Positions 182 to 13,640 of a stretch of 64,000 bases of DNA are shown piece by piece. How positions within the stretch are numbered: the first letter of the stretch is position 1; the number at the start of each line of letters is the position of its first letter. Origin of the DNA: Xenophilus sp. Marseille-Q4582 (GTDB lineage: Bacteria > Pseudomonadota > Gammaproteobacteria > Burkholderiales > Burkholderiaceae_C); the NCBI RefSeq assembly GCF_916700565.1, contig NZ_CAKAKO010000007.1, forward strand, positions 1-64,000, given 5' to 3'. The notes under the pieces are model-generated. The model did no database searches. It was not told the DNA's origin and saw only the letters and a program-made list of their open reading frames with translations. The position numbers and the translations under genes were made by a program.

Positions 182-1549
182 TCAGCGATCAGCCAACCGC
201 CTCATCACCAGATCATCCAGCTCCCGATAGTCCGGCAGCGTGGTGTCGATGGCCCGCCCGCCGCGCAGCACGGTACGGTCGAACTGGTGGCGCGCCAGCA
301 TCTCGGAATAGCTGCGCGCGCGCAGCACCATCAGGTCGGCCGGGGCACCCACTTTCAGCACGCCGCGTTGGCTCAGGCCCATGATGGCCGCGGGCGTGGC
401 GCTGGCGGCGCGGATCCAGTCGCCGAAGGGGTGGTCCAGGTGCAGGATCTTCACCGCCTGGGTGTAGGTGTCCAGCATGTCGTGGTCGCCGTACGCGTAG
501 AAGGGGTCGCGGCAGTTGTCGCCCGCCACGGCCACGGGAATGCCGGCGGCCTTCAGTTCGTGCAGCACCGTCACACCGCGCCAGCGCGGGGTGCGCACGG
601 CGTCCACGCTGCGGTCCTGCAGGTACATGTTGACGGTGGGCAGGCTCACGATGGCGATGCCGGCGTCCCGGCAGGCGGCAAGGGTCTCGGCGATGAATGC
701 GTCGGTCTGCAGCGCCAGCGAGGTGCAGTGGCCGCACAGGATGCGGCCCTTGAAACCCACGGCCACCGCCGCGCGGGCCACGCGGATCAGCGAACGGGCG
801 CGCGGGTCGGTGGATTCGTCCACATGCAGGTCCACGTTCAGCCCGCGCTCGGTCGCGAGCTGGAACAGGCGCGTGATGCTTTCGTCGATCTCCGGTGGCG
901 TGGGCTCGGCCGGGTGGCGCATCGAGCGCGTGACGCAGCCCAGGTTGCCGCCGCTCTCTGCCACGATGTCGGCCAGACGCACACCCTCCTCGGTCAGGAA
1001 CACGTCCACCGGCGCGATGGACGACACCTGCAGGTCGATGCGGCCGGCCCAGGCTTCGCGCATCGCGCGAAAGACCGGGAAGGAGATCTCGGCTTGCGGC
1101 GCCTGCGAGTCCAGGTGCGTGCGGATCGCCACCACGCCCTTGGCATAGGCGGTGCGCAGCGCGAAGTCCATGCGCCGGCGCACGTCTTCGGCATGCCAGT
1201 TCTTCGTGCGGTCCTGCGCCGTGGCTTGGGACGCACCCGCACCGTCGCCCGTGGCGTTGGGCTGGCGCGGCCAGATGTGACCCTTGTCCAGATGGGTGTG
1301 CAGGTCTAGAAAGCCGGGCAGCACCAGCGAGGCATCCAGGTCCGGGCCACGGGCTGCGTCCGTCGCGCCTGCGGGCGCGATGGCGGCAATGCGCCCGGCT
1401 TCGATGGCGAGGTCCAGCGCCACCAGGTCGCCGTCGCCGGCCGGGCGCAGGCGCCCCGCACCGGGGTCCTCGATCAGGCAGCGCGGGGCGCGCACGTGGC
1501 GCAGCACATGACTGTCGCCCGGCGGCGGGGTGAAGAAGCCGTGCGTCAT
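182..1549 (-). CDS. cytosine-deaminase-like amidohydrolase A
   Basis: This 455-aa member of the amidohydrolase superfamily hydrolyses a cyclic amidine or amide ring, as cytosine deaminase, creatinine deaminase and AtzC do. The metal and catalytic motifs are in the expected order: HTHLDKGH near residue 84 (HxH pair), DLHVDES (the HxxE pair, general acid), GHCTSL (His) and GDNCRDPF (metal Asp). No signal peptide is visible, so it is probably cytoplasmic. Its ATG overlaps the stop of the upstream binding-protein gene by four bases, so the two are translationally coupled. A clear paralogue (amidohydrolase B) sits in the right arm at 6254-7600. The substrate is not readable from sequence; a pyrimidine, creatinine or hydantoin-type ring is inferred from context. 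Confidence 0.85.
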   Translation of the reverse strand: MTHGFFTPPPGDSHVLRHVRAPRCLIEDPGAGRLRPAGDGDLVALDLAIEAGRIAAIAPAGATDAARGPDLDASLVLPGFLDLHTHLDKGHIWPRQPNATGDGAGASQATAQDRTKNWHAEDVRRRMDFALRTAYAKGVVAIRTHLDSQAPQAEISFPVFRAMREAWAGRIDLQVSSIAPVDVFLTEEGVRLADIVAESGGNLGCVTRSMRHPAEPTPPEIDESITRLFQLATERGLNVDLHVDESTDPRARSLIRVARAAVAVGFKGRILCGHCTSLALQTDAFIAETLAACRDAGIAIVSLPTVNMYLQDRSVDAVRTPRWRGVTVLHELKAAGIPVAVAGDNCRDPFYAYGDHDMLDTYTQAVKILHLDHPFGDWIRAASATPAAIMGLSQRGVLKVGAPADLMVLRARSYSEMLARHQFDRTVLRGGRAIDTTLPDYRELDDLVMRRLADR

Positions 1550-2595
1550 GCGTTCTTCTTTCCGGCCACGAATTGCAGCGTGTAGGCGGTTTGAATGTCC
1601 ACGCCCGGCTTCTGCGCGCCGGCCGCGACCATGGCGTCGTAGAAACTCTTCCAGCGTGCTTCGCTCATGGTGCCGATGCCCTTGACCCGCGTGTCGGCGG
1701 TTTCGACCAGGCCGTATTGCTTCATGGCGCCGATGGCATAGGCGATGGTGTCGGCGCCCATCTGCGGGTTGCTCTTCTGGATCATCGCGTTGGCGGCCGA
1801 CGCATCACCGTTCAGGTAGCCGGCCCAGCCTTTGGCGGTGGCGGTGACGAAGCGCTGCACCAGTTCGGGCTGCTCCTTCACCATCTTCGGCACGGCGATG
1901 GTGACGTTGGCGTAGTTGTCGAAGCCTTGATCGGCCAGCAAGTGGATGACCGGCTCCACGCCCGACTTGCGCGCATTGAAGGGCTCGCTGGTCAGGTAGC
2001 CCTGGACGGTGGCCTGCCTGTCCACCAGCCAGGGCGCCAGGCTGAAGGCATAGGGACGCAACTGATCCTCGGTCAGGCCGAACTTCGCCTTCAGCCACAG
2101 CCAGTAGGTCTGGCGGCCCGTGGTGGCGACCAGGATGGGCTTGCCCTTCAGGGCGGCCAGCGTGTCATTGCCGGTGCCCGGGTGCGACATCAGCACGCGC
2201 GGGTCCTTCTGGAAGAAGGCCGCGATGGCCACGGCGGGGAGTTTGTCCTGCGCAAAGGCGAAGGTGCGGAAGCTGTCGGCGTCGGCAAAGTCGCAGGTGC
2301 CGGCCATGAACAGCTGCATCACGTTGACCTGCGGGCCGCCGGGCCGGATCTCGACGTCCAGCCCGTGTTCCTTGTAGATGCCGGTGGCCTGCGCGTGGTA
2401 CAGGCCGCCGTGCTCGGCCTGGGCCAGCCAGCCGGTCTGGTAGCTGATCTTGGTGAGGCCCTGCGCGGTGGCGCGCGGCAGGAAGGCCGGCAGGTGCGAC
2501 ACCAGCGCGGCACCGCCCAGGGCGGCCAGCGTGCGGCGGCGGCTCAGGCCGATGGGCGCCTGTGAAAGAGAGGCAGGGGGCATGCGGGCGTTCAT
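1546..2595 (-). CDS. NMT1/THI5-like ABC substrate-binding protein A
   Basis: A 349-aa periplasmic binding protein of the NitT/TauT/NMT1 group, which captures small anions or pyrimidine-like ligands. The N-terminus carries a twin-arginine-like motif (LSRRRTLAALGGAAL) and an A-x-A cleavage region near residue 44. The mature part contains AQAEHGGLYHAQATGIYKE and GGPQVNVMQL, hallmarks shared with the second binding protein at 8613-9614. The start at 2595 has GAGGA a few bases upstream. No ATPase or permease lies in this left arm, so it must use the translocator of the right arm or an unlinked one. It sits between the FAD oxidase (29-bp gap) and amidohydrolase A (4-bp overlap). Confidence 0.88.
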   Translation of the reverse strand: MNARMPPASLSQAPIGLSRRRTLAALGGAALVSHLPAFLPRATAQGLTKISYQTGWLAQAEHGGLYHAQATGIYKEHGLDVEIRPGGPQVNVMQLFMAGTCDFADADSFRTFAFAQDKLPAVAIAAFFQKDPRVLMSHPGTGNDTLAALKGKPILVATTGRQTYWLWLKAKFGLTEDQLRPYAFSLAPWLVDRQATVQGYLTSEPFNARKSGVEPVIHLLADQGFDNYANVTIAVPKMVKEQPELVQRFVTATAKGWAGYLNGDASAANAMIQKSNPQMGADTIAYAIGAMKQYGLVETADTRVKGIGTMSEARWKSFYDAMVAAGAQKPGVDIQTAYTLQFVAGKKNA

Positions 2596-2624
2596 GGTGG
2601 GTCCTCGGAGTGGCGGATCGGGGA

Positions 2625-4088
2625 TCAGGCCGCGCTGGCCTCTGCTTGCTCGGCCACGGCGGCGGGCGCCACGGCGGGCTCCTGCGCATCGGCCCCGCCG
2701 CGAAAGCGCCAGCCCGCACTGGGCAGCGCACCGCCCGTGCTCTGCTGGGCGGCGCCGGCGTCGAAGCGCAGCTTGCCGGGGTTCATCAGGCCCAGCGGGT
2801 CCATCGCCTGCTTGAAGGCGGCGTCGGCGCCGCCCAGCGACTTCATGCCGCCTTCCTTGACCAGGAAGGTGTGGTTGTTGGCGACCATGGCGCCGTCCTC
2901 GGCCATGCCGCGCATCACCTCGGCCAGATGTGCCTCGCCTTCGTAGCGGAAGAAGGGCGAGCCCTGGAAGCTGAGCTTGCCGTCGAAGCGCTTGGCCTCG
3001 AAGTGCATGCCCAGCAGGTGCGAGAAGCGCTGGTGGCTGCGGCCAATGGCGCCCACCAGGTCCGGGTCCAGGTACAGGCCCACGTTGCTCACCACCTCGG
3101 GATGCTCGCGGTTCACATGCATGCGCGTGTGGCCCCAGCTCATCTCGTAGAGCGGGATGCGGTAGGGCGCCTCGCCTTCCGGCGCCTCGCTGGTGACGAG
3201 TCCGCCGAACTCTTGCACCAGCGCCTGGAAGGCCTCCATGAAGGGCGCCGCGACCATCGCCAGCACCATGCCTTCGCAGTCGTCGCGGCCGTAAGGCCGC
3301 AGCACGCGCATCATGCGCCAGATGGGGCCGCCGATGACGCTGACCAGCTTCTTCGGGACGCCGTCGCTGGTGGCCAGCGCATGCGCGAAGCGCACCGAAG
3401 TCATGAACTCCGGGAACACGACCACGGCCTCGCGCCAGGGCCAGGCCGGCGCCAGCGGCATCTCGACCTCGGTGATGATGCCGTTGCTGCCGTAGGCGTG
3501 ATGCGCGAGGTTTACGTCGTCACCGCGCAGTTGCACCACGCGCGGCTCGGCTTCCACGCTCACCACTTCCAGGCCCAGGATGTTGCCGCGGTCGCGCAGG
3601 ATGCCCCATTCACAACTGCCCACGCCCGCGTGGCCGCCGCCGACGAAGCCGCCCAGCGTGGCGACCTTCTTGGTGGACGAATGGATGCGCAGCTCCCAAC
3701 CCAGCGGCCGCGTGGCCTCGTCGATGTGGGACAGGCGCGCGCCGGCTTCGGCGCGCAGGCGGCCGGGCTCCTGCCACAGCACGCGCGACAGCGCGGTCAT
3801 GTCGACCATCGCGCCGCCGGCCAGCGGAATGCCCTGGCCGAAGTTGCAGGTGCCGGCGCCGCGCATCACCAGCGGCATGCGCGTGCGCGCCGCGGCGGCG
3901 GCCACGCGCAGCACGTCGGCCTTGTGGCGTGGCTGCACGATGACGTCGGCCACATGCGCCAGCGCGTCGTCCTTCATCACGGGGCTGAAGTTGGCTGTCA
4001 TGTCGCGGCTCTTGCGGCGCACGATGTCGGGGTCTGAAATGGCGGGGACGTCGCCCAGCGCGGCAAGGAAGGCAGCGGTGTCGTTCAT
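2625..4088 (-). CDS. FAD-linked oxidase A (GlcD/PCMH type)
   Basis: A 487-aa flavoprotein with an N-terminal PCMH-type FAD-binding domain (GAGTCNFGQGIPLAGG, then a glycine-rich TLGGFVGGGHAGVGS stretch) and a C-terminal oxidase domain ending in MDPLGLMNPGKLRF, as in GlcD/D-lactate dehydrogenase relatives. I chose the ATG at 4088, because the longer open frame to 4169 has no family similarity and the 4088 start has GAGAA upstream. It is first in the left arm and divergent from the MarR gene. A paralogue lies at 11573-12937. Oxidation of a hydroxylated or ring intermediate is plausible; the substrate is unknown. Confidence 0.85.
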   Translation of the reverse strand: MNDTAAFLAALGDVPAISDPDIVRRKSRDMTANFSPVMKDDALAHVADVIVQPRHKADVLRVAAAAARTRMPLVMRGAGTCNFGQGIPLAGGAMVDMTALSRVLWQEPGRLRAEAGARLSHIDEATRPLGWELRIHSSTKKVATLGGFVGGGHAGVGSCEWGILRDRGNILGLEVVSVEAEPRVVQLRGDDVNLAHHAYGSNGIITEVEMPLAPAWPWREAVVVFPEFMTSVRFAHALATSDGVPKKLVSVIGGPIWRMMRVLRPYGRDDCEGMVLAMVAAPFMEAFQALVQEFGGLVTSEAPEGEAPYRIPLYEMSWGHTRMHVNREHPEVVSNVGLYLDPDLVGAIGRSHQRFSHLLGMHFEAKRFDGKLSFQGSPFFRYEGEAHLAEVMRGMAEDGAMVANNHTFLVKEGGMKSLGGADAAFKQAMDPLGLMNPGKLRFDAGAAQQSTGGALPSAGWRFRGGADAQEPAVAPAAVAEQAEASAA

Positions 4089-4162
4089 GCCTGGGTTCTC
4101 TTTCTCATGGTTTGAACAAAGGAATGGCGCCGTCGCTGCGGGGCGAGAGCCGCGGCCCACGC

Positions 4163-4174
4163 GGTGCATGCACC
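4163..4174. promoter_or_regulatory. 12-bp perfect palindrome between oxidase A and marR
   Basis: GGTGCATGCACC is a perfect 12-bp palindrome in the 223-bp divergent region. It lies 75 bp upstream of the FAD oxidase start and 138 bp upstream of the MarR start. MarR proteins bind short palindromes in divergent promoters, so this is a candidate operator. I do not see a second copy. Confidence 0.35.
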
Positions 4175-4311
4175 ACGGTGGACGCGGACCCTGGGCTTGT
4201 CACGTCGTCTCTTCAAGCGGTGCAAGGAGCATGCCTATGCGTGAAAATGCACACATCTCCAGGCGCGGCCCGCAATGTGCGTGAGGTGCCGCGAAAGGAA
4301 GGCGCACGCTG

Positions 4312-4743
4312 ATGGAACTCGAAGACCACCTCTTCTTTCTCTGCACCCAGGTGGTGTACCGGCGCGACCGCGCCATCAACGACGCGCTGCGCCCACTGGG
4401 CATGCTCAACACCGAGTGGCGCACGCTGGGCACGCTGGTGCGCAAAGGGCCGCAGACCATGCAGGAGCTGGCGCAGTGGACCGCCTACGAACGCACCCGG
4501 CTCACACGCATCCTGCACGGCATGGAAGAACGCGGCTGGGTCGAGCGCACCGGCGCCGCGCACGACGGGCGCGCCGTGCTGGTGCGCATCGCGCCGCGTG
4601 GCAAGAAAGCCCATGCCGAAGCCGAAGCGGCCGTGGAGGCGCTGACGCAGGACGTGCTGTCGGTGTGCTCCCCCGCCGAGGTGGCGCGGGTGCGCAAGTC
4701 GCTGCAGGCGATGCGGGCGCAGCTGATGCGTGCCGGGCATTGA
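4312..4743 (+). CDS. MarR-family transcriptional regulator
   Basis: A 143-aa winged-helix repressor of MarR size and layout: helices around EWRTLGTLVRKGPQTMQELA, a recognition-helix region TAYERTRLTRILHGMEERGW, and the wing DRR-like segment AHDGRAVLVRIAPRGKK. GGAAGG precedes the ATG at a normal distance. It is divergent from the left arm and stands immediately upstream of the TetR gene. MarR proteins typically sense aromatic or small organic ligands and repress a divergent operon, so it probably controls the left arm and itself. The ligand is unknown. Confidence 0.9.
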   Translation: MELEDHLFFLCTQVVYRRDRAINDALRPLGMLNTEWRTLGTLVRKGPQTMQELAQWTAYERTRLTRILHGMEERGWVERTGAAHDGRAVLVRIAPRGKKAHAEAEAAVEALTQDVLSVCSPAEVARVRKSLQAMRAQLMRAGH

Positions 4744-4792
4744 CGCCGGCGCGGCGGCCCGCGGCGCTTATATTCAGCCCCCTGTTGCCCCC

Positions 4793-5482
4793 ATGACCAC
4801 CGCTTCCGACACGCCCGACACCTTCCTGGCCCATGCGCCGGCGCGCGCGCTCTCGGCCCGGCGCAGCTCGTCGCGCGTGCGCCAGGGGCGCGAGCGCATC
4901 CTGGCGGACATCCGCGCGGCAGCCATCACGGAGTTCAGCCAGAACGGGCTCAAGGGCACGTCCACCCAGGCCATCGCCGACCGCGCCGGCCTCACCAAGC
5001 CACAGCTGCACTACTACATCACCGGCAAGGAAGAGCTCTACAACGAGCTGCTGATGCAGGTGCTGCACGACTGGAAGGTGGTGTTCGCGTTCGACGAGCG
5101 CAGCGACGACCCGGCGCGCGTGCTGGAGGCCTATGTCCGCCAGAAGCTGGACCACGCCTTCGACCACCCTGAGATGTCGCGCATCTTCACGCGCGAAGTG
5201 CTGGACGGCGGGCGCAACCTGGAGCGCTTCTGGCCGCTGTCGCGCCAGTGGACGCAGAAGAAGATCGACATCATCAACGGCTGGATCGCCCGCGGCCGGA
5301 TGCGCCCGCTGGACGCCATGCTGCTGCTGCAGCACATCTGGGCCATGACCCAGTACCACGCCGATTACGCACTGCAGGCGCGCGCGATGGCCCGGCGCGG
5401 CGAGGGCGCCGCGCTCGAGCGCGAGGCCGTGGCGCGCGAGCTGGTCGACTTCGTGCTCGCGGGCTGCGCCATCCGCCGCTGA
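4793..5482 (+). CDS. RutR-like TetR-family regulator
   Basis: A 229-aa TetR protein. The N-terminal helix-turn-helix spans about residues 38-85 (GTSTQAIADRAGLTKPQLHY). The ligand domain resembles E. coli RutR: YYITGKEELYNELLMQVLHD aligns with the RutR segment after its HTH, YVRQKLDHAFDHPEMSRIF aligns with its next helix, and HIWAMTQYHADYALQ is close to the RutR IWASTQHYADFAVQ segment. RutR senses uracil/thymine and controls pyrimidine catabolism. The ATG at 4793 was preferred over a GTG at 4730 that would overlap marR. A TATATT element lies just upstream. The TGACCA/TGGTCA dyad at 5619-5645 is its likely operator. Confidence 0.88.
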   Translation: MTTASDTPDTFLAHAPARALSARRSSSRVRQGRERILADIRAAAITEFSQNGLKGTSTQAIADRAGLTKPQLHYYITGKEELYNELLMQVLHDWKVVFAFDERSDDPARVLEAYVRQKLDHAFDHPEMSRIFTREVLDGGRNLERFWPLSRQWTQKKIDIINGWIARGRMRPLDAMLLLQHIWAMTQYHADYALQARAMARRGEGAALEREAVARELVDFVLAGCAIRR

Positions 5483-5618
5483 GAGGCTGAGCCGGCGCCG
5501 GCCTGGGCCTGCCGTGCCCGCGCGCTCCATTCCCTGATCCGGGCCGCCGCGCACCACAGCGGCGCATGCGCGCCCGTGCGCACCCCCGCCAACCCTGGCA
5601 CGTGACTTGCGTGAACTC

Positions 5619-5645
5619 TGACCAGTTGCTCTGATTAACTGGTCA
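5619..5645. promoter_or_regulatory. RutR-type operator over the right-arm promoter
   Basis: TGACCAGTT (5619-5627) and AACTGGTCA (5637-5645) are perfect 9-bp inverted arms around a 9-bp spacer. The outer half-sites TGACCA/TGGTCA are those of the known RutR box (TTGACCA-NN-TGGTCAA), but spaced further apart. A weak promoter overlaps it: TTGCGT at 5607-5612, 17 bp, TCTGAT at 5630-5635. The dyad ends six bases before the quinone reductase ATG, so binding would block transcription of the right arm. Confidence 0.6.
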
Positions 5646-5651
5646 AGCCCC

Positions 5652-6239
5652 ATGCGAGTGCTCGTCATCTACTGCCACCCGGTCGAAACCAGCTTTGCCG
5701 CCGCCCTGCACCAGCAGGTGCTGGACAGCCTGCGCGCCGCCGGCCACGAGGTGGACGACTGCGACCTCTACGCCGAGGGCTTCAACCCCGTGATGTCGCG
5801 CGAAGAGCGCCTGGGTTACCACGACGTGCCCGCCAACCGCGCCCCGCTGCAAAGCTACATCGACCGCCTGCACCGCGCCGAGGCCATCGTGTTCTGCTTC
5901 CCGACCTGGTGCTTCGGCCTGCCGGCCATGCTCAAGGGCTGGTTCGACCGCATCCTGATGCCGGGCGTGGCCTTCGACATCAGCGACCCGGCCAACGTCA
6001 GGCCCATGCTCACGAACATCCAGCGCATCAGCGCCGTCGTGACCTACGGCCGCCCGCGCTGGATGGCCTGGTACATGGGCGATCCGCCGCGCAAGATCAT
6101 CACGCGCTACATGAAGCGGCTGACGGCCGCGCAGGCCCGCGTGGACTACCACGCCCACTACCACATGAACGTGGCCACGCGCGAGCAGCTGTCGCGCTTC
6201 AAGGCGCGCGTGGGCCAGGCCATGGCCCGGCTGGCTTGA
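5652..6239 (+). CDS. flavodoxin-fold NAD(P)H:quinone oxidoreductase family protein
   Basis: A 195-aa Flavodoxin_2-type protein related to NQO1/KefF/MdaB. It shows the N-terminal beta strand and phosphate loop (MRVLVIYCHPVETSFAAALH), a central FCFPTWCFGLPAMLKGWFDR segment that binds FMN/FAD in this family, and a typical length. It would transfer two electrons from NAD(P)H to a quinone or flavin. It is first in the right arm, directly behind the RutR-type operator. It may recycle reduced flavin or detoxify a quinoid intermediate; this role is inferred. No Shine-Dalgarno sequence is obvious before the ATG. Confidence 0.85.
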   Translation: MRVLVIYCHPVETSFAAALHQQVLDSLRAAGHEVDDCDLYAEGFNPVMSREERLGYHDVPANRAPLQSYIDRLHRAEAIVFCFPTWCFGLPAMLKGWFDRILMPGVAFDISDPANVRPMLTNIQRISAVVTYGRPRWMAWYMGDPPRKIITRYMKRLTAAQARVDYHAHYHMNVATREQLSRFKARVGQAMARLA

Positions 6240-6253
6240 GCGGACCACAGGCC

Positions 6254-7600
6254 ATGCAAACGCCCATGCCCGCACATCTGCAACAGGTGCGCCTGCCGCG
6301 CTGGCTGTTGCCCAGCGACTGGCCACAGATCCAGGGTCACCCGGCGCCGGCGCAACTGGGCCTCTCGCAAGGCCGCATCACTGCGCTGACGCCCGCCGCG
6401 CAGGCACAGCCCGCCCACAGCGGCTGGAACCTGCACGGCGCGCTGGCCCTGCCCGGCTTCGTCGACGCGCACGTGCACCTGGACAAGACCTTCACGCTGC
6501 CGCGCATCCCGCACGTCGAACCCGGCCTGCTCGGCGCCATCGAGGCCATGATGACCGACCGCGCTGGCTGGACCGCCGAGGACGTGCGCCAGCGCGCCGA
6601 ACGCGCCCTGCACTGGGCCTGGGAAGCCGGCAGCACGCGCCTGCGCACCCATGTGGACTGGTGGGAGCCCGACCGGGTGCCCGTGGCCTGGCCCGTGCTG
6701 CGCGAACTGGCGCAGGCCTGGCGCGGCCGCGTGCGGCTGGAGCGCGTGAGCCTGATGCGCCTGGCCTTCTACGAAGACGCCGCGCAGGCCGACCGGCTCG
6801 CGCGCACGGTGGCCGCCAGCGGGCCCGACGCGCTGCTGGGCGGCTTCGTCCACACCGCGCACTGGAACGAGACCGGGCTGCGCCACCTGCTGCGGGCCGC
6901 GCAACGCCACGACCTGGATGTGGACCTGCACGTGGACGAGGAGCTGGAGCCCTCGGCCCATGGCCTGGCGACACTTGCCCGCCTCACGCGCGAGATCGGC
7001 TTCACCGGCCGCGTGGTCTGCGGCCATGTGTGCGCGCTGGCCGCGCAGGACGAGGCCACCGCGCTGCGAACGCTGGACGCCGTGGCGCGCGCGCCGATCA
7101 CGCTGGTGTCGCTGCCCGCCACCAACCTGCTGCTGCAGGACGCCGTCACCGGCCGCACGCCGCGCCAGCGCGGCCTGACGCTGGTGAAGGAGGCACGCGA
7201 GCGCGGCATCCCGCGGCTGCTGGCCAGCGACAACGTGCAGGACCCGTTCTGCCGCCTGGGCAGCTACGACCCCGTCGAGGCGCTGGCCATCGGCGCGCTG
7301 GTGGGCCAGCTGCCCGATCCCTTCGACACCTGGTCCGAAGCGCTGTGCCGCGCCGACTGGCTGGAGCGCGCGCCCGCCGCCGTGCAGGCGCCTTCGCTGA
7401 TCGGCGCCCCGGCCGACCTGGTGCTGTTCGCCGACGCCGACATGCACGGCTTCCCGTCGCGCGCCGCGCGCCGCGTGGTGCTGCGCGACGGCCGCCTGGC
7501 GCACGGCCAGCCGCCTGCGGGCTGGCTGCCGTCCGCGGCCCATGCGGCCCATGCGGCCCACGCGGCGCCCGCGCCGGCCTCCTCCTTCGTCCTTTCCTGA
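6254..7600 (+). CDS. cytosine-deaminase-like amidohydrolase B
   Basis: A 448-aa paralogue of amidohydrolase A. The ordered motifs are DAHVHLDKTF (HxH), DLHVDEEL (HxxE), GHVCAL (His) and SDNVQDPF (metal Asp). The family includes cytosine deaminase, creatinine deaminase and N-isopropylammelide hydrolase AtzC, all of which cut C-N bonds in small rings. I took the ATG at 6254, 14 bp after the quinone reductase stop; the frame is open further upstream inside that gene, but without homology. The C-terminus has an odd low-complexity AAHAAHAAHAAP tail encoded by a 9-bp tandem repeat. Substrate unknown. Confidence 0.85.
   Translation: MQTPMPAHLQQVRLPRWLLPSDWPQIQGHPAPAQLGLSQGRITALTPAAQAQPAHSGWNLHGALALPGFVDAHVHLDKTFTLPRIPHVEPGLLGAIEAMMTDRAGWTAEDVRQRAERALHWAWEAGSTRLRTHVDWWEPDRVPVAWPVLRELAQAWRGRVRLERVSLMRLAFYEDAAQADRLARTVAASGPDALLGGFVHTAHWNETGLRHLLRAAQRHDLDVDLHVDEELEPSAHGLATLARLTREIGFTGRVVCGHVCALAAQDEATALRTLDAVARAPITLVSLPATNLLLQDAVTGRTPRQRGLTLVKEARERGIPRLLASDNVQDPFCRLGSYDPVEALAIGALVGQLPDPFDTWSEALCRADWLERAPAAVQAPSLIGAPADLVLFADADMHGFPSRAARRVVLRDGRLAHGQPPAGWLPSAAHAAHAAHAAPAPASSFVLS
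7535..7561 (+). repeat. 9-bp tandem repeat in the amidohydrolase B tail
   Basis: Three consecutive copies of GCGGCCCAT (the last with C in place of T) encode the AAHAAHAAH tail of amidohydrolase B. The same 9-mer recurs at the N-terminus of the RhlE-like gene near 37146-37154 on the other strand. It looks like local slippage, with no sign of function. Confidence 0.7.
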
Positions 7601-7618
7601 ACCCAGCGAGACATTCCC

Positions 7619-8473
7619 ATGCTCCACGGCTACATCCCGCCCCACCGCTTCCTGCCCTACCTGAGCTGGACCGAGATCGACGCGCTGCCCGACCGCGAGA
7701 ACACGGTGATCGTGCTGCCCTGCGGCGCCATCGAGCAGCACGGCCCGCACCTGCCCTGCTCGGTGGACAGCGTGATCGCCTCCGGCGTGATGGGCGAAGC
7801 CCTGCGCAAGCTGCCGGCCGACGTGCGCGCCTTCGCGCTGCCGCCCATCACCTACGGCAAGTCCGAGGAGCATCTGCACTTCCCCGGCACCCTGACGCTG
7901 ACCGGCACCACGCTGCTGTCCACCGTGATCGAGATCGGCGAATCGGTCTACCGCTCGGGCTTTCGCAAGCTGCTGTTCGCCAACGGCCACGGCGGCCAGC
8001 CGCAGGTGCTGGAGATGGCGGCACGCGAGCTGCGCCTGCGCCACGGCGACTTCGTGGTGGTGCCGCACGGCGTGTCGCGCCTGCCCAGTGCCGCCAGCAA
8101 GCAGGTGAGCGAGCAGGAGAAGAAGCTGGCCATGCACGCGGGCCACTCCGAAACCGCGCTGATGCTGGCCCTGGCGCCCGAAACGGTGCGCATGGACCGC
8201 GCTGCCGCCAACTTCCCGCCGCCCTTCCCCATCCCGCTGCTGTCGCCCGATGGCCGCCCGGCCTGCGCCTGGACGGCGCGCGACTTCGGCCCCTCGGGCG
8301 TGATCGGCGACCCGACCTCGGCCACGCGCGAACAGGGCCTGGCCATCCTGGACACGCTGAGCGACAGCTGGGCGCAGGCGCTGACCGAGCTGTACCAGCT
8401 GCGCTGGCTGGTGCGCGAGGAAGCGACCTGGGAGCGCGGTCAGTACACGGGCCACATCGAGTCGGTGCGCTGA
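7619..8473 (+). CDS. creatininase-family amidohydrolase
   Basis: A 284-aa creatininase-fold metal hydrolase. Motifs: PCGAIEQHGPHLP (metal Glu/His), DSVIASG, FANGHGGQPQVLE (NGHGG loop) and MHAGHSETAL (metal His/Glu). Family members open small amide rings or deformylate: creatinine amidohydrolase, MftE, ArfB. It lies 18 bp after amidohydrolase B, in the same operon. Its pairing with two deaminase-like ring hydrolases is what points to a cyclic N-compound such as creatinine or a pyrimidine. It could instead be a formamide hydrolase; the exact reaction cannot be read. Confidence 0.87.
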   Translation: MLHGYIPPHRFLPYLSWTEIDALPDRENTVIVLPCGAIEQHGPHLPCSVDSVIASGVMGEALRKLPADVRAFALPPITYGKSEEHLHFPGTLTLTGTTLLSTVIEIGESVYRSGFRKLLFANGHGGQPQVLEMAARELRLRHGDFVVVPHGVSRLPSAASKQVSEQEKKLAMHAGHSETALMLALAPETVRMDRAAANFPPPFPIPLLSPDGRPACAWTARDFGPSGVIGDPTSATREQGLAILDTLSDSWAQALTELYQLRWLVREEATWERGQYTGHIESVR

Positions 8474-8554
8474 AGCCGCGCCCGCCCGCTCCCACCCTGC
8501 ATGCCCCAGGACGGCGCGGTCTGCCTCTTGCTAGCGCCCACCCTGAGCCGCCGT

Positions 8555-8568
8555 CCCCCCCCCTTTTT
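8555..8568 (+). repeat. C9T5 homopolymer run before the binding protein B gene
   Basis: Nine C followed by five T lie in the 139-bp gap between the creatininase and binding protein B, 45 bp before the latter's start. Such runs slip during replication and could vary leader length. There is no evidence of phase variation here. Confidence 0.5.
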
Positions 8569-8612
8569 CCTCTCCCTGCACTGATTTGTCTGACCTCTCC
8601 AGGAGCCCTGCC

Positions 8613-9614
8613 TTGAACACTCGCCTCACCCGCCTCGCTTCCCGTGCCGCCCTGGCACTGGGTGTCTCCGTCCTGGGCCTTGCCGCCGGCGGCGCCCACG
8701 CGCAGGAGAAGTTCACCTACATGACCAACTGGTACGCGCAGGCCGAGCACGGCGGCTTCTACCAGGCCGTGGCCACCGGCATCTACAAGAAGTACGGCCT
8801 GGACGTGACCGTCAAGATGGGCGGCCCGCAGGTCAACATCCTGCAGATCATGGCGGCCGGCCAGGCCGACTGCATCATGGGCTCCAGCGACCTGCAGATG
8901 ATGATCGCGCGCAGCGGCGGCCTGCCGGTGGTCACCGTGGCCGCGATGTTCCAGAAGGACCCGCAGGTGCTGATCGCGCACGAGGACGTGAAGAGCCTGG
9001 CCGACATGAAGGGCAAGACGATCCTCATCGCGCCCGCGGCCCAGCGCGGCTACTACGCCTGGCTCAAGACCAAGTTCGGCTTCACCGACGCGCAGACCCG
9101 CCCCTACACCTTCAACATCCAGCCCTTCGTGGCCGACAAGAACGTGGTGCAGCAGGGCTACCTGACCTCCGAGCCCTTCGCCATCCAGAAGGCCGGCGTG
9201 AAGGCCAACACCTTCCTGCTGGCCGACAACGGCTACCCCTCCTACGCGACCACCGTCTCGTGCATGGACAAGACGGTGAAGGAGCGCAGCAAGGCCGTGG
9301 AAGCCTTCGTCAAGGGCACGGCCGAGGGCTGGAAGTCCTACCTGGCCGACCCGGCGCCGGCCAATGCGCTGATCAAGAAGGACAACCCCAACATGACCGA
9401 TGAGCAGCTCGCACACAGCGTGGCCAAGCTCAAGGAGATGGGGATCGTGGCGAGCGGCGACGCCCTCACCCAGGGCATCGGGATCATGCAGGAGGCGCGC
9501 GTGAAGCAGAACTACGACTTCGCCGTGTCCGCCGGCCTGATCGAGGCCGCCAAGGTGGACCTGAAGCAGGCCTTCGACCTGCGCTTCATCCAGGCCGCCA
9601 AGGTCCTGCCCTGA
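8613..9614 (+). CDS. NMT1/THI5-like ABC substrate-binding protein B
   Basis: A 333-aa periplasmic binding protein. The start is a TTG at 8613 chosen for the AGGAG at 8601-8605 seven bases upstream; it gives a clean Sec signal peptide (MNTRLTRLASRAALALGVSV) cleaved near AHA-QEKF at about residue 30. The frame also opens at a TTG at 8586, but that start lacks a Shine-Dalgarno. The mature protein has NWYAQAEHGGFYQAVATGIY and GGPQVNILQIMAAG, closely matching binding protein A. It is followed by the ATPase and permease, so it is the dedicated receptor of this importer. The ligand is probably a small heterocycle or carboxylate. Confidence 0.9.
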   Translation: MNTRLTRLASRAALALGVSVLGLAAGGAHAQEKFTYMTNWYAQAEHGGFYQAVATGIYKKYGLDVTVKMGGPQVNILQIMAAGQADCIMGSSDLQMMIARSGGLPVVTVAAMFQKDPQVLIAHEDVKSLADMKGKTILIAPAAQRGYYAWLKTKFGFTDAQTRPYTFNIQPFVADKNVVQQGYLTSEPFAIQKAGVKANTFLLADNGYPSYATTVSCMDKTVKERSKAVEAFVKGTAEGWKSYLADPAPANALIKKDNPNMTDEQLAHSVAKLKEMGIVASGDALTQGIGIMQEARVKQNYDFAVSAGLIEAAKVDLKQAFDLRFIQAAKVLP

Positions 9615-9654
9615 GCGGGCGCACCGATCCCGCCAGACGCCAAGAGAGGCAGCC

Positions 9655-10467
9655 ATGAGCGATCACTCCCCCGTGCCAGCCATCGAGGTGCTGTCGGCGC
9701 AGAAGACCTACCCCAACGGGACGGTCGCCCTGCAGCCGGTTCAGCTCACGATCCAGGAAGGCGAGTTCGTGACCCTGCTGGGCCCGTCGGGCTGCGGCAA
9801 GAGCACGCTGTTGAAGATGGTCGCCGGCCTGCTGGAGCCTTCCGACGGGCGCCTGCTGCTGTGGCGCAAGCCGGTGCAGGCGGCGCTGGACGCGGACGCC
9901 GAGGCGAAAAAGATGGCCTTCGTCTTCCAGTCCCCCACGCTCATGCCCTGGGCCAGTGTGCAGACCAACGTGCGCCTGCCGCTGGACCTGGCCGGCGTGC
10001 CCCGCGCCGAGGCCGACGCCCGCGTGGCCGAGGCGCTGGAACTGGTGGGCCTGTCGAAGTTCGCCAAGGCGCTGCCGCGCGCCCTGTCGGGCGGCATGCA
10101 GATGCGCGTGTCCATCGCGCGCGGTCTGGTCGTGCAGCCCAACCTGCTGCTCATGGACGAGCCCTTCGGCGCGCTGGACGAGATCACGCGCCACAAGCTG
10201 GACGCCGACCTGCTCGAACTCTGGCGCAAGAAGAAGCTCACCGTGGTCTTCGTCACCCATTCGATCCACGAGGCGGTCTTCCTGTCCAGCCGCGTGGTCA
10301 TGATGGCCGCGCGGCCCGGCCGCATCGTCGAAGAGGTGCACATCGACGTGCCCTACCCGCGCAGCGCGGAGTTCATGGTCTCCAGCGAATTCCAGCACTA
10401 CGCCAAACACCTGCAGCGCAGCCTGCTGGCGGCCAGCCAGCACACCGAAGAGGAGTCCGCGACATGA
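9655..10467 (+). CDS. NitT/TauT-type ABC transporter ATPase
   Basis: A 270-aa ATP-binding subunit that powers import for the adjacent binding protein and permease. Walker A GPSGCGKST lies at residues 43-51, a Q-loop at FQSPTLMPW, the signature LSGGMQMRVSIARGL, Walker B LLLMDEPFGALDE and the H-loop VTHSIHEA. This is the SsuB/TauB/NrtD layout. An AGAGAGG sequence precedes the ATG. It ends in an ATGA overlap with the permease gene, so the two are co-translated. It is the only importer ATPase in the locus. Confidence 0.95.
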   Translation: MSDHSPVPAIEVLSAQKTYPNGTVALQPVQLTIQEGEFVTLLGPSGCGKSTLLKMVAGLLEPSDGRLLLWRKPVQAALDADAEAKKMAFVFQSPTLMPWASVQTNVRLPLDLAGVPRAEADARVAEALELVGLSKFAKALPRALSGGMQMRVSIARGLVVQPNLLLMDEPFGALDEITRHKLDADLLELWRKKKLTVVFVTHSIHEAVFLSSRVVMMAARPGRIVEEVHIDVPYPRSAEFMVSSEFQHYAKHLQRSLLAASQHTEEESAT

Positions 10468-11399
10468 GCATCACCTGGAATGCCGCGCCGGCCCCCGCGC
10501 CGGCGTCGACGTCTGCCGCCACGGCCGCCGTGGCCCCACCCGCCATGCCCGCTACGCCCGCGGTCGCAGCGCCCGTCGCCCCGCTGCCGCCGGCCGTGGC
10601 ACCCGCCCGCGTGCCGCTGCTGGCCCAGCCGCGCGTGCAGCGCGTGCTGCTGCCGGTGGGGGTCGGCCTGGTGCTGCTCGGCGCCTGGCAGGCGCTGGTG
10701 GTGGGCCTGGAGCTGCCCCCCTACCTGGTGCCCTCGCCGGGCCTGATGATGCAGACGCTGATCACCGACGCCGGCATGCTGGGCATGGCCCTGCTGGTGA
10801 CGCTGAAGATCACGGTGCTGTCCTTCCTCGTCGCCACGTTGCTGGGCGTGCTGATCTCCTTCGTGTTCGTGCAGAGCCGGCTGATCGAGACCGCGCTCTT
10901 CCCCTACGCGGTGCTGCTGCAGGTCACGCCCATCGTGGCCATCGCGCCGCTGATCATCATCTGGGTGAAGGACCCGACGGCTTCGCTGGTGCTGTGCGCC
11001 ACGCTGGTGGCGCTATTCCCCATCATCAGCAACACCACGCTGGGGCTGCGCAGCGTCGACCCCGACCTGCAGGCCTACTTCAAGATGAACCGCGCCACGC
11101 GCCTGCAGACGCTGGTGCGGCTGCGCGTGCCGAGCGCGCTGCCCTACTTCTTCGGCGGCCTGCGCATCTCCAGCGGCCTGGCGCTGATCGGCGCCGTGGT
11201 GGCGGAATTCGTGGCCGGCACCGGCGGCAGCGCCACCGGCTTGGCCTACCAGATCCTGATGGCCGGCTACCAGCTCAACATTCCGCGCATGTTCGCGGCC
11301 CTGCTGCTGATCTCGCTCACCGGCGTGGGCCTGTTCGTGCTGATGGCCTGGGCCACGCGCGCGGCCCTGGGCTCCTGGCACGCCAGTGAGATGGAGTAA
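10464..11399 (+). CDS. NitT/TauT-type ABC transporter permease
   Basis: A 311-aa membrane subunit. The first 55 residues are an unusual Ala/Pro-rich cytoplasmic extension. About six transmembrane helices follow (VLLPVGVGLVLLGAWQALVV first). The EAA loop that contacts the ATPase is visible around residues 215-240 (NRATRLQTLVRLRVPSALPY). The ATG overlaps the ATPase stop by four bases. The homologues SsuC/TauC usually lack such a long N-terminal extension; whether it is translated or an internal start is used is uncertain. It probably serves both binding proteins A and B. Confidence 0.92.
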   Translation: MSITWNAAPAPAPASTSAATAAVAPPAMPATPAVAAPVAPLPPAVAPARVPLLAQPRVQRVLLPVGVGLVLLGAWQALVVGLELPPYLVPSPGLMMQTLITDAGMLGMALLVTLKITVLSFLVATLLGVLISFVFVQSRLIETALFPYAVLLQVTPIVAIAPLIIIWVKDPTASLVLCATLVALFPIISNTTLGLRSVDPDLQAYFKMNRATRLQTLVRLRVPSALPYFFGGLRISSGLALIGAVVAEFVAGTGGSATGLAYQILMAGYQLNIPRMFAALLLISLTGVGLFVLMAWATRAALGSWHASEME

Positions 11400-11401
11400 C
11401 A

Positions 11402-11520
11402 CCCCCCAGGCCGCTTCGCGGCTCCCCCCTCTCTCGCCTTCGGCGGGAGGGGGGCGCACCCAGAGGCCTGGCAGAGCCAGTTCCTCGGGTGCCCTGGGGG
11501 CTTCGCTGCGCTCGCCGGCT
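11402..11520 (+). repeat. dispersed intergenic repeat, copy 1
   Basis: The gap between the permease and FAD oxidase B is filled by a GC-rich repeat with internal hairpins (GCCGC-TTC-GCGGC; CGCC-TTC-GGCG inside a C/G-run stem). It ends in GTGCCCTGGGGGCTTCGCTG. A near-identical inverted copy is at 63467-63564 and a partial copy at 30711-30770. It may terminate or attenuate transcription between the transporter and oxidase genes. Confidence 0.75.
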
Positions 11521-11572
11521 TGGATTGCCTGCTTCGGCGCGCCGCGCCATGCTTGACTGAGAGATAACGACC

Positions 11573-12937
11573 GTGAACGCACCCGTTTCCCCCATCGAAC
11601 AGCTGCAGCTGGGCCTGCCCGAGCTGGACTGGATCACCGACCCGAACCGCATCCAGCGGCTGTCGCAGGACTTCTCCTGGTTCAGCCCGGTCCTCACGCG
11701 CCAGCTGGAAGGCAAGGTGGCCGAGGCCGTGGTGCGCCCGCGCACCGAAGCACAGATCCGCCAGCTGGTCAGCGCCTGCGTGCGGCTGAAGCTGCCGCTT
11801 ACCGTCCGCGGCAGCGGCACCGGCAACTACGGCCAGACCACACCGCTGGCCGGCGGCGTGGTGATGGACATGACCAGCTTCAACGAACTGCTGTGGCTGC
11901 GCCCCGGCCTGGCGCGCGCGCAGGCCGGCATCCGCCTCAACGAGATCGAGAAGGCCGCGCAGGCCGAAGGGCAGGAGCTGCGCTGCATGCCCTCCACCTA
12001 CCGCAGCGCCACGCTGGGCGGCCTGTTCGGCGGCGGCTTCGGCGGCGTGGGCTCCATCAACTACGGTCCGCTGGCTGCCGCCGGCAACGTGGTGGGCATC
12101 AAGGCCATGACCATCGAGGCCGAGCCGCAGGTGATCGAGCTGCGCGGCGCCGAGGCCCTGCGTCTGCACCACCTGTGGGGCACCAACGGCCTGGTGCTGG
12201 AGCTGGAGATCGGCCTGGCGCCGGCCCGCCCCTGGCTGGAAACGCTGGCCGTGTTCACCGACTTCGACGCCGCCCTGGCCTTCGGCGACCAGCTCGCGCG
12301 CGCGCCGGGCATCGAGAAGCGCGAGGTCGCCTTCCTCGCCAGCCCCGTGCCCGACTACCTGACCCAGCTGGGCGACTACCTGCCCAAGGGCTGCCACGCC
12401 GTGCTCTCGCTGGTGTCCGAAGCGGGCGAAGAGGCGCTCAACGAACTGGTGGCCGCCCACGGCGGCACGGTGAGCTATCGCCGCACCGCCGCAGAAGTGA
12501 CCCGGAGCCACAAGACGCTGATGGAGTACACGTGGAACCACACCACGCTGCACGCCCTGAAGGTGGACAAGAGCCTCACCTACCTCCAGACCAGCTTCAC
12601 GCCCGGCGAGTACGTGAAACAGATCACCGAGCTGAGCCAGCGCTATGCCGGCGAGGTCTTCATGCATGCCGAGTTCCTGCGCAACCTGGATGGGCAGATC
12701 AACTGCAGCGCGCTGCAGATCGTGCGCTTCACCACCGAGGAGCGGCTGCAGCAGATCATCGACGAGCACCGCGCCTATGGCGTGCGCATCAACAACCCGC
12801 ACACCTTCATCGTCGAGGACGGCAAGGCCGGGGGCGACCTGCCCGAAGAAGTGCTGGCGATGAAGGCGCGCTTCGACCCATTCGGCCTGCTCAACCCGGG
12901 CAAGCTGCGCGGCTGGCCGGTGGCCGCGGCCGCATGA
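11573..12937 (+). CDS. FAD-linked oxidase B (GlcD/PCMH type)
   Basis: A 454-aa paralogue of FAD oxidase A. PCMH FAD-binding motifs GSGTGNYGQTTPLAGG and TLGGLFGGGFGGVGS occupy the N-terminal half; the C-terminus FDPFGLLNPGKLRGW matches the oxidase C-terminal signature. The start is a GTG at 11573 with GAGAGA upstream. It is separated from the permease by the dispersed repeat but shares its strand, and its stop overlaps the RidA start. It probably oxidises a product of the ring-opening reactions, passing electrons to a carrier or O2; this is inferred. Confidence 0.85.
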   Translation: MNAPVSPIEQLQLGLPELDWITDPNRIQRLSQDFSWFSPVLTRQLEGKVAEAVVRPRTEAQIRQLVSACVRLKLPLTVRGSGTGNYGQTTPLAGGVVMDMTSFNELLWLRPGLARAQAGIRLNEIEKAAQAEGQELRCMPSTYRSATLGGLFGGGFGGVGSINYGPLAAAGNVVGIKAMTIEAEPQVIELRGAEALRLHHLWGTNGLVLELEIGLAPARPWLETLAVFTDFDAALAFGDQLARAPGIEKREVAFLASPVPDYLTQLGDYLPKGCHAVLSLVSEAGEEALNELVAAHGGTVSYRRTAAEVTRSHKTLMEYTWNHTTLHALKVDKSLTYLQTSFTPGEYVKQITELSQRYAGEVFMHAEFLRNLDGQINCSALQIVRFTTEERLQQIIDEHRAYGVRINNPHTFIVEDGKAGGDLPEEVLAMKARFDPFGLLNPGKLRGWPVAAAA

Positions 12938-13413
12938 CCGCCGTCGCAAGCATGGGCGCCCCCATGGCGCGCTACGCCGCGGCGCAGCGCGTGGGCGACT
13001 TCGTCTTCATGAGCGGCGTGGTGGCAGTAGACCCGGCCACGCGCCAGGCCGTGTCGCGCTACGAGCAGTTGCCCGAGGCGGCGCAGGCCGAGTTGCGCGG
13101 CCTGGGTTTTGTCACCGGCCAGATGTCGGTGGACGTGTTCGAGGCGCCCCTCGTGGCCCAGAGCTGGTTCGTGCTGGAGCGCATCCGCGCGCTGGCCGCC
13201 GAGCACGGCGGCACGATGGCCGACGTGTTCAAGCTGGTGCAGTACTTCCGCCGCCTCCCCGACTACGCGCCCTTCAACCGCGTGCGCGGCCTGTTCTACC
13301 CCGACGCGCCCCCCGTGAGCACGGTGGTCGAGGTCAACCGCTTCCTGCCCGGCGACGAAGTGCTGGTCGAGGTGGAAGCCACGATGTACCTGCCGCTCGC
13401 GGCGAAGGGCTGA
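12934..13413 (+). CDS. RidA-family (YjgF/YER057c/UK114) protein
   Basis: A 159-aa RidA-fold protein with GDFVFMSGVVAVDP at the N-terminal half and PVSTVVEVNRFLPGDEVLVE near the end. RidA deaminates reactive enamines/imines; RutC in uracil catabolism belongs to the same fold. The position of the archetypal catalytic Arg (P-A-R-S/T) reads P-P-V-S-T, so the RidA deaminase arginine is missing, as in the Rid4-7 type subfamilies. Its ATG overlaps the oxidase B stop (ATGA). It would act on an unstable intermediate made by the oxidase; the reaction is unknown. Confidence 0.85.
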   Translation: MTAVASMGAPMARYAAAQRVGDFVFMSGVVAVDPATRQAVSRYEQLPEAAQAELRGLGFVTGQMSVDVFEAPLVAQSWFVLERIRALAAEHGGTMADVFKLVQYFRRLPDYAPFNRVRGLFYPDAPPVSTVVEVNRFLPGDEVLVEVEATMYLPLAAKG

Positions 13414-13520
13414 ACCGCCCGACGGCCCGGCGCACGCGCGAGCCGCGGGCACCACGGCGGCCAGCGCACCGCGCCATGGTGCGGCTTTCCGGTCCGCGCC
13501 GCGCGCGGCGAACGGCAGGC

Positions 13521-13542
13521 CTGTCATCTTCCGGGATGACAG
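13521..13542. terminator. 8-bp stem hairpin after the ridA-like gene
   Basis: CTGTCATC, a 6-nt TTCCGG loop, then GATGACAG. It lies 107 bp beyond the ridA-like stop and about 100 bp before the tannase-family gene. It has no U-run, so it may be a weak terminator or an operator. Confidence 0.35.
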
Positions 13543-13574
13543 AGCGCATCGCCACATGCTCCTACGCTACGGCC

Positions 13575-13614
13575 CGGTTCCCACAGGCTCGGCAGAGCCG
13601 GCGCGGGAACCGGA
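13575..13614 (+). promoter_or_regulatory. nested stem-loop in the tannase-family leader
   Basis: CCGGTTCCC (13575-13583) pairs with GGGAACCGG (13606-13614), and GGCTC-GGCA-GAGCC forms an inner hairpin. This 40-nt structure ends 27 bases before the ATG of the lipoprotein gene and just before its GAGAGGAG ribosome-binding site. It could modulate translation or mRNA stability. It matches no riboswitch I know. Confidence 0.4.
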
Positions 13615-13640
13615 CCCCACGCGAGAGGAGACACGACGTG

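Follow-up and report, generated by a model that had tools for sequence, protein, structure and literature searches.

Single bacterial enzymes that act on folate and related pterins are already known. Metagenomic amidohydrolases deaminate isoxanthopterin and pterin-6-carboxylate (Hall et al. 2010, as cited in PMC5270733), and PDA of Variovorax sp. F1, a protein of 399 residues with 37% identity to Arad3529, deaminates folate and pteroate with Km values of 0.28 and 1.5 mM, respectively; an endoribonuclease gene lies downstream of predicted PDA genes of V. paradoxus, and the F1 study stops at deaminated folate and pteroate (PMC9513972). For a further enzyme, PDB 6v42/6v43, we rely for the reaction on the title of entry 6v42 (“flavin oxygenase with cofactor bound involved in folate catabolism”), and no paper with 6V42 or 6V43 in its text was found in the open-licence literature searched. 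Here we compare with these enzymes a cluster of thirteen genes at positions 182–13413 of the window, by which we mean the whole 64,000-nucleotide stretch of Xenophilus sp. Marseille-Q4582 DNA that starts at base 1 of contig C7 (NZ_CAKAKO010000007.1) in its 5.54-Mb genome. Because the three strongest anchors of this locus (6v42, 2paj-type deaminases and PDA) are folate or pterin enzymes, we consider it probable that it imports and catabolises an oxidised pteridine from folate or other pterins (pterin, pterin-6-carboxylate, isoxanthopterin or the matching lumazine). The cluster belongs to a widely conserved, mostly uncharacterised catabolic system, and no description of it as a pathway was found in the same literature.

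The thirteen open reading frames each fall in the family named for them in an earlier reading made from the letters alone (the sequence-only reading; Amidohydro_3 twice, NMT1 twice, FAD_binding_4 twice, and so on). They form two modules that meet between a MarR and a TetR gene: a left module of MarR (plus strand) and FoxA, SbpA and AhA (minus strand), and a core operon of TetR, Fldx, AhB, Crn, SbpB, Atp, Perm, FoxB and Rid, all on the plus strand. An oxidase, receptor and amidohydrolase triplet is present in both arms, as that reading had noticed, but a recent duplication is not borne out, since FoxA/FoxB, SbpA/SbpB and AhA/AhB are 36%, 43% and 36% identical, respectively, and the Fox and Ah pairs fall in separate clades; they are better regarded as old paralogues.

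FoxA (2625–4088, minus strand; its translation makes 4088 the likely start) and FoxB (11573–12937, plus strand) are flavin enzymes of the VAO fold that match 6v42 over their full length in sequence and fold with 39% and 42% identity, respectively (E = 1.2e-89 for FoxA); we propose FoxA as a pteridine oxygenase or oxidase and FoxB as a pteridine oxygenase. The closest kin of 6v42 that was found, a 76% identical protein of Mesorhizobium sp. 65-26, is encoded in a row Fldx-Fox-AhA-Perm-Atp-Sbp. A class-wide Fox survey at E = 1e-90 gave a match in our genome only among 229, and a sample of 150 genomes of the same family (our own included) was used instead. In this sample a Fox profile, which picks genes without recourse to Crn, found 40 genes in 23 genomes; within 10 kb of these lie a Crn-like gene in 32 cases, a 2paj-type gene in 8, AhA in 4, and at least one of the three in 38. 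In the reverse direction, 29 of 107 Crn-like matches have a Fox gene within 10 kb. The creatininase fold has many other uses, yet Fox is nearly always in the company of Crn, 2paj-type or AhA genes.

AhA (182–1549, minus strand) and AhB (6254–7600, plus strand; likely start 6254) are amidohydrolases of the CodA/AtzC type. AhA scores 606.6 bits against the “cytosine deaminase” family (NCBIfam NF005759, PRK07583; cut-off 403 bits) and AhB 318.4 bits, which is below the cut-off. CodA is the best PDB match of these CodA-like proteins, and the active-site residues of the PDA/Arad3529 family are kept in them: H73, H75, H226, E229, H258 and D326 (AhB numbering; the HxH, HxDE, GH and DN positions) are invariant in all 14 aligned rows, and we take them to correspond to the catalytic residues of CodA. 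The glutamine of the CodA PQEG stretch, which presumably binds cytosine, is not kept in AhA, AhB and their relatives, and the Glu that creatininase carries two residues beyond its active-site His is replaced by Gly in Crn; judged by these residues, “cytosine deaminase” and “creatininase” are therefore probably best taken here as fold labels.

A third amidohydrolase, AhC, connects the locus to PDA. It is encoded in a paralogous cluster of our own genome (L042, G000:C1:783000-802900) that has Sbp, carboxylesterase, Atp, Perm, Fox, Sbp, VanB-type reductase and TetR genes on one strand and, tail to tail with them on the other, Crn, AhC and Rid; the RidA protein beside AhC is 80% identical to the Rid of the window. 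AhC was sought in 8 of the at least 12 Variovorax genomes that carry the core, and 7 of the 8 have it (60–70% identical). Its neighbour there, in tail-to-tail orientation, is a row made up of Crn, Atp, Perm, Fox, Sbp, VanB-type reductase and TetR genes; RidA follows AhC directly downstream in 6 of the 7, and a length of 396–399 residues is possible for AhC in 5 of the 7. Of the 29 amidohydrolase genes of V. boronicumulans (merged matches to two Pfam families), AhC alone has one of the 15 RidA genes directly downstream on the same strand. Since length, downstream RidA and genus agree, AhC is very probably PDA. AhA and AhB are each 38% identical to AhC, much as PDA is to Arad3529; they form clades separate from the PDA-like AhC, and a role as pterin deaminases is proposed for them. 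AhA groups, with 100/100 support, with the amidohydrolase that adjoins the 6v42-type flavin enzyme in rhizobia. Left out of this tree were 18 named loci, which were repeats, near copies or the more distant paralogues L002 and L004 of our own genome, together with identical rows, rows shorter than 330 residues and rows with stops; the Fox tree was built from 39 chosen loci, with rows shorter than 330 residues or with stops removed. A 71% identical AhA relative was also seen in V. dokdonensis (G161, L182).

Klebsiella and Rahnella have, divergent to the core, an arm of a receptor, an amidohydrolase and a 2-oxoglutarate- and iron-dependent (2OG-Fe) oxygenase. The amidohydrolase of Klebsiella matches 2paj along its whole length (E = 2.3e-201). 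We take 2paj to be the isoxanthopterin/pterin-6-carboxylate deaminase of Hall 2010. Such 2paj-type proteins are of another amidohydrolase branch, hardly alignable with AhA, AhB or AhC, and their genes adjoin Perm and FoxB, or FoxA, in relatives: in three genomes (G115, G001 and G009) the gene is directly between Perm and FoxB, a place taken by AhA in Rhizobium, and in Ramlibacter pallidus the gene, 63% identical to that of Klebsiella, stops 2 bases short of a FoxA relative. They occur in 10 of the 150 family genomes, 6 of the 10 within 10 kb of a Fox gene. With our own genome left out, they are carried by 8 of 22 genomes with Fox versus 2 of 127 without (Fisher p = 2.4e-6), and by 4 of 11 other core genomes versus 6 of 138 without the core (p = 0.0028); these p-values, and those given below, ignore the kinship of the genomes.

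The core operon itself is well conserved. Crn (7619–8473, plus strand; PF02633, E = 1.8e-73) is at least 73% identical in 12 of the 150 genomes, our own included, with the next best match at 46%, and is 73–92% identical to its counterparts in 11 aligned core relatives. The order TetR, Fldx, AhB, Crn, SbpB, Atp, Perm, FoxB and often Rid is mostly kept, apart from local losses and insertions. Named genomes were scanned as well, with 80 of 592 relatives taken in, and among the matches listed the core is also present in Variovorax, Comamonas, Ramlibacter, Pseudorhodoferax, Acidovorax, Polaromonas, Raoultella, Pantoea and Psychromonas, with partial cores in Rubrivivax bins and rearranged ones in rhizobia and other alphaproteobacteria. 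The 42 core loci compared, which are not all independent and some of which are cut by contig ends, have SbpB in 41, Atp in 40, Perm in 37, FoxB in 37, AhB in 30, Fldx in 29, TetR in 24 and Rid in 22, so the genes are conserved together as one set rather than scattered. Two of these loci, L035 and L057, are apparently one contig (439,238 bases each), L032 and L033 come as a pair of copies from one genome, L066 is Crn alone and L063 has only Crn, SbpB and FoxB. Fldx alone stands at the place of the reductase in 28 loci; 7 have only a VanB-type reductase there, 1 has both and 6 have neither. This suggests that an electron donor is required by FoxB or a partner oxygenase.

The remaining core genes, all on the plus strand, are as follows: TetR (4793–5482, with 4793 its likely start) has a YcdC/RutR-type C-terminal domain (PF08362, E = 4.5e-29), Fldx (5652–6239) is a flavodoxin-fold NAD(P)H reductase (PF02525, Flavodoxin_2, E = 2.4e-29), SbpB (8586–9614; PF09084) is an NMT1-like periplasmic receptor that matches the formyl-aminopyrimidine-binding protein PDB 3ix1 (E = 3.2e-10), Atp (9655–10467; PF00005) and Perm (10464–11399; PF00528) are the ATPase and permease of an ATP-binding cassette transporter, and Rid (12934–13413; PF01042, L-PSP) is a RidA-family imine/enamine hydrolase. 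One relative, G105 (L032/L033), has two tandem core operons, each with its own putative operator.

The left module also occurs apart from the core. MarR (4312–4743; PF12802) adjoins FoxA in G071, G105 and G148, where MarR and FoxA-SbpA-AhA form a unit on a contig other than that of the core; SbpA (1546–2595, minus strand; PF09084, E = 3e-29) is its NMT1-like receptor. The arms could thus belong to unrelated pathways that are neighbours by chance, and their separate regulators and the presence of an Atp and Perm in the G105 left module fit this explanation. We nevertheless think it unlikely, because 4 of the 5 family genomes with AhA-type genes carry the core (Fisher p = 0.0012 without our own genome and 0.012 once the genus is left out), the left arm of the window has no ATPase or permease of its own before the contig end (it ends 181 bases from there and might continue), and the enterics have an analogous divergent arm of receptor, deaminase and oxygenase. 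In addition, R. pallidus has, behind the core and on the same strand (L059:14898-20841), RidA, a receptor, two Rieske oxygenases, the 2paj-type deaminase and the FoxA relative, which is 76% identical, about 9 kb from the core and cut by the locus end. This position in line with the core ties FoxA to it, and with it the pteridine interpretation gained weight and its rivals lost some. The two duplicated branches of the earlier idea are better read as two old modules that lie head to head here and on separate contigs in those three relatives, although both tend to co-occur in genomes.

A different doubt concerns the compound. The cluster might degrade another fused-ring heterocycle (purine-, lumichrome- or flavin-like) with pterin-type enzymes as recruited relatives, and the two paralogous clusters in our genome, whose substrates have probably diverged, the accessory Rieske, 2OG-Fe and PaoABC genes that differ among loci, and the mere 38% identity of AhA and AhB to AhC lend this some support. 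It seems improbable to us when set against the three folate/pterin anchors, and no dedicated purine or flavin pathway gene was noticed among the annotated neighbours, which were not searched systematically, apart from XdhC and PaoABC in Rhizobium. Among the accessory genes, VanA-type Rieske oxygenases adjoin the cluster in L037 and L044, and a PaoABC-type molybdenum aldehyde oxidoreductase, perhaps for a pteridine aldehyde, does so on a Rhizobium leguminosarum plasmid (L127:3838-7634).

Several observations weigh against a pteridine substrate, or at least against one substrate for all loci, which may vary with the accessory genes. FoxA, FoxB and 6v42 are in three different clades, and 39–42% identity would allow another substrate. 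The 2paj-type gene is carried by only 4 of the 11 other core genomes, 4 of its 10 copies have no Fox gene within 10 kb (3 of the 4 on contigs of 3.8–28 kb), and our own genome has no match to it (isoxanthopterin deaminase, PRK12393) at E = 1e-100. Of the 42 core loci, 12 gave no AhB, and contig ends truncate some of these. The equation of AhC with PDA is drawn from length, neighbour and genus; among the 8 Variovorax genomes examined AhC was not found in V. paradoxus ISL-81 (G155), and in V. dokdonensis AhC is not followed by RidA. The roles given to the window's proteins rest on sequence and gene context. Finally, the F1 study reports that Variovorax F1 accumulates deaminopteroate and that its extracts hardly degrade it (PMC9513972). 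At least 12 named Variovorax genomes have the core, and pteroates may therefore not be among its substrates; if F1 has it, the core may serve small pteridines or lack induction there.

That the substrate is monocyclic (pyrimidine-, creatinine- or hydantoin-like), as the sequence-only reading had proposed, is now very improbable: the RutR-like regulator, half-sites TGACCA/TGGTCA like the E. coli RutR consensus, the cytosine-deaminase and creatininase folds and the likeness of SbpB to a pyrimidine-binding receptor favour it, but TetR reaches 123.2 of the 368 bits set for RutR (TIGR03613), Rid 33.7 of 169.1 for RutC (TIGR03610) and Crn 103.6 of 235 for creatininase (TIGR04448), the creatininase Glu and CodA glutamine are gone, and 6v42 and the two deaminases indicate pteridines instead. 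Compared with the folate/pterin links, CodA, AtzC, creatininase and the pyrimidine receptor give weaker matches. Crn keeps the EQHG...D and NGH motifs of the creatininase fold, which it shares with MftE/ArfB-type proteins, and it also misses the mycofactocin MftE cut-off (TIGR03964; 149.5 versus 172 bits). The locus resembles the Rut pathway in its regulator, its RidA protein and its operator half-sites, and differs in the missed RutR and RutC cut-offs, the lack of any RutA- or RutB-type protein among the thirteen and a wider operator spacing. What endures of the earlier proposal, given these missed cut-offs and the genes mostly kept together across the 42 loci, is a dedicated uptake-and-catabolism system for a nitrogen heterocycle that is not Rut.

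If the substrate is a pteridine, the steps might be as follows. SbpA and SbpB would capture it and share the one ATPase/permease; AhA, and probably AhB, would remove the 2-amino group or hydrolyse a ring C–N bond; FoxA and FoxB would oxygenate the ring system, with Fldx as the likely electron source; Crn, perhaps with AhB, would open lactam rings; and RidA would clear imine or enamine products. TetR, through a 27-bp operator, and MarR would switch on the two modules. We put forward only tentatively, as somewhat less than an even chance, that the cluster encodes a complete route by which bacteria open the pteridine ring of folate-derived pterins, in which Crn is the ring-opening lactamase after flavin-dependent oxygenation, the RutR-like TetR senses pteridines and in most of these genomes has only one target operator, and the paralogous clusters are tuned to different pteridines (folate/pteroate versus small pterins). 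The cluster puts names to candidates for uptake, deamination, oxygenation, ring opening, imine hydrolysis and sensing, in culturable genera that are open to knock-out, and it suggests that “cytosine deaminase” and “creatininase family” labels in such clusters may hide pteridine enzymes.

The putative operator is a palindrome, TGACC-N17-GGTCA, at 5619–5645 that ends 6 bases before the Fldx start. The motif is present in 27 of the 42 core loci, as a rule 2–340 bases upstream of the first detected enzyme gene. A degenerate form has 1 match in our whole genome and 11 places in 10 of the 12 core genomes, each of which falls at a core operon as judged from its coordinates; because it was written from the sites themselves, this tests its rarity elsewhere and not its presence at core operons. 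It was not found in the core genomes G064 and G101, and a reversed-motif control gave no match. The half-sites are those that we liken to the E. coli RutR consensus. A second loose-pattern match at window position 8806 is inside the SbpB gene, recurs as coding sequence and was rejected. G105 also has a TetR-Sbp-2OG-Fe oxygenase unit with a similar palindrome (L032:6010). In the left module, a conserved block between MarR and FoxA (4221–4255), common to four aligned genomes, is a possible MarR operator or promoter. A promoter scan gave no sigma-70-like site, and terminator-like sites numbered 6 against 4.7 expected.

Directly 3' of Rid is a gene of the tannase/feruloyl-esterase family (window 13476–15320), which is unmatched in the compared loci and so was excluded from the system. 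Many cyanobacteria (L074–L099 and L102–L104) have a Crn relative of about 46–54% identity, mostly without other cluster genes nearby; in L083 and L087 a FoxB relative is within 10 kb of it. Genes that recur beside the core in Variovorax (c0 in 11 loci, c7 in 7 and c8 in 5) are lnt and two glycyl-tRNA synthetase genes, which mark a chromosomal address and not the pathway.

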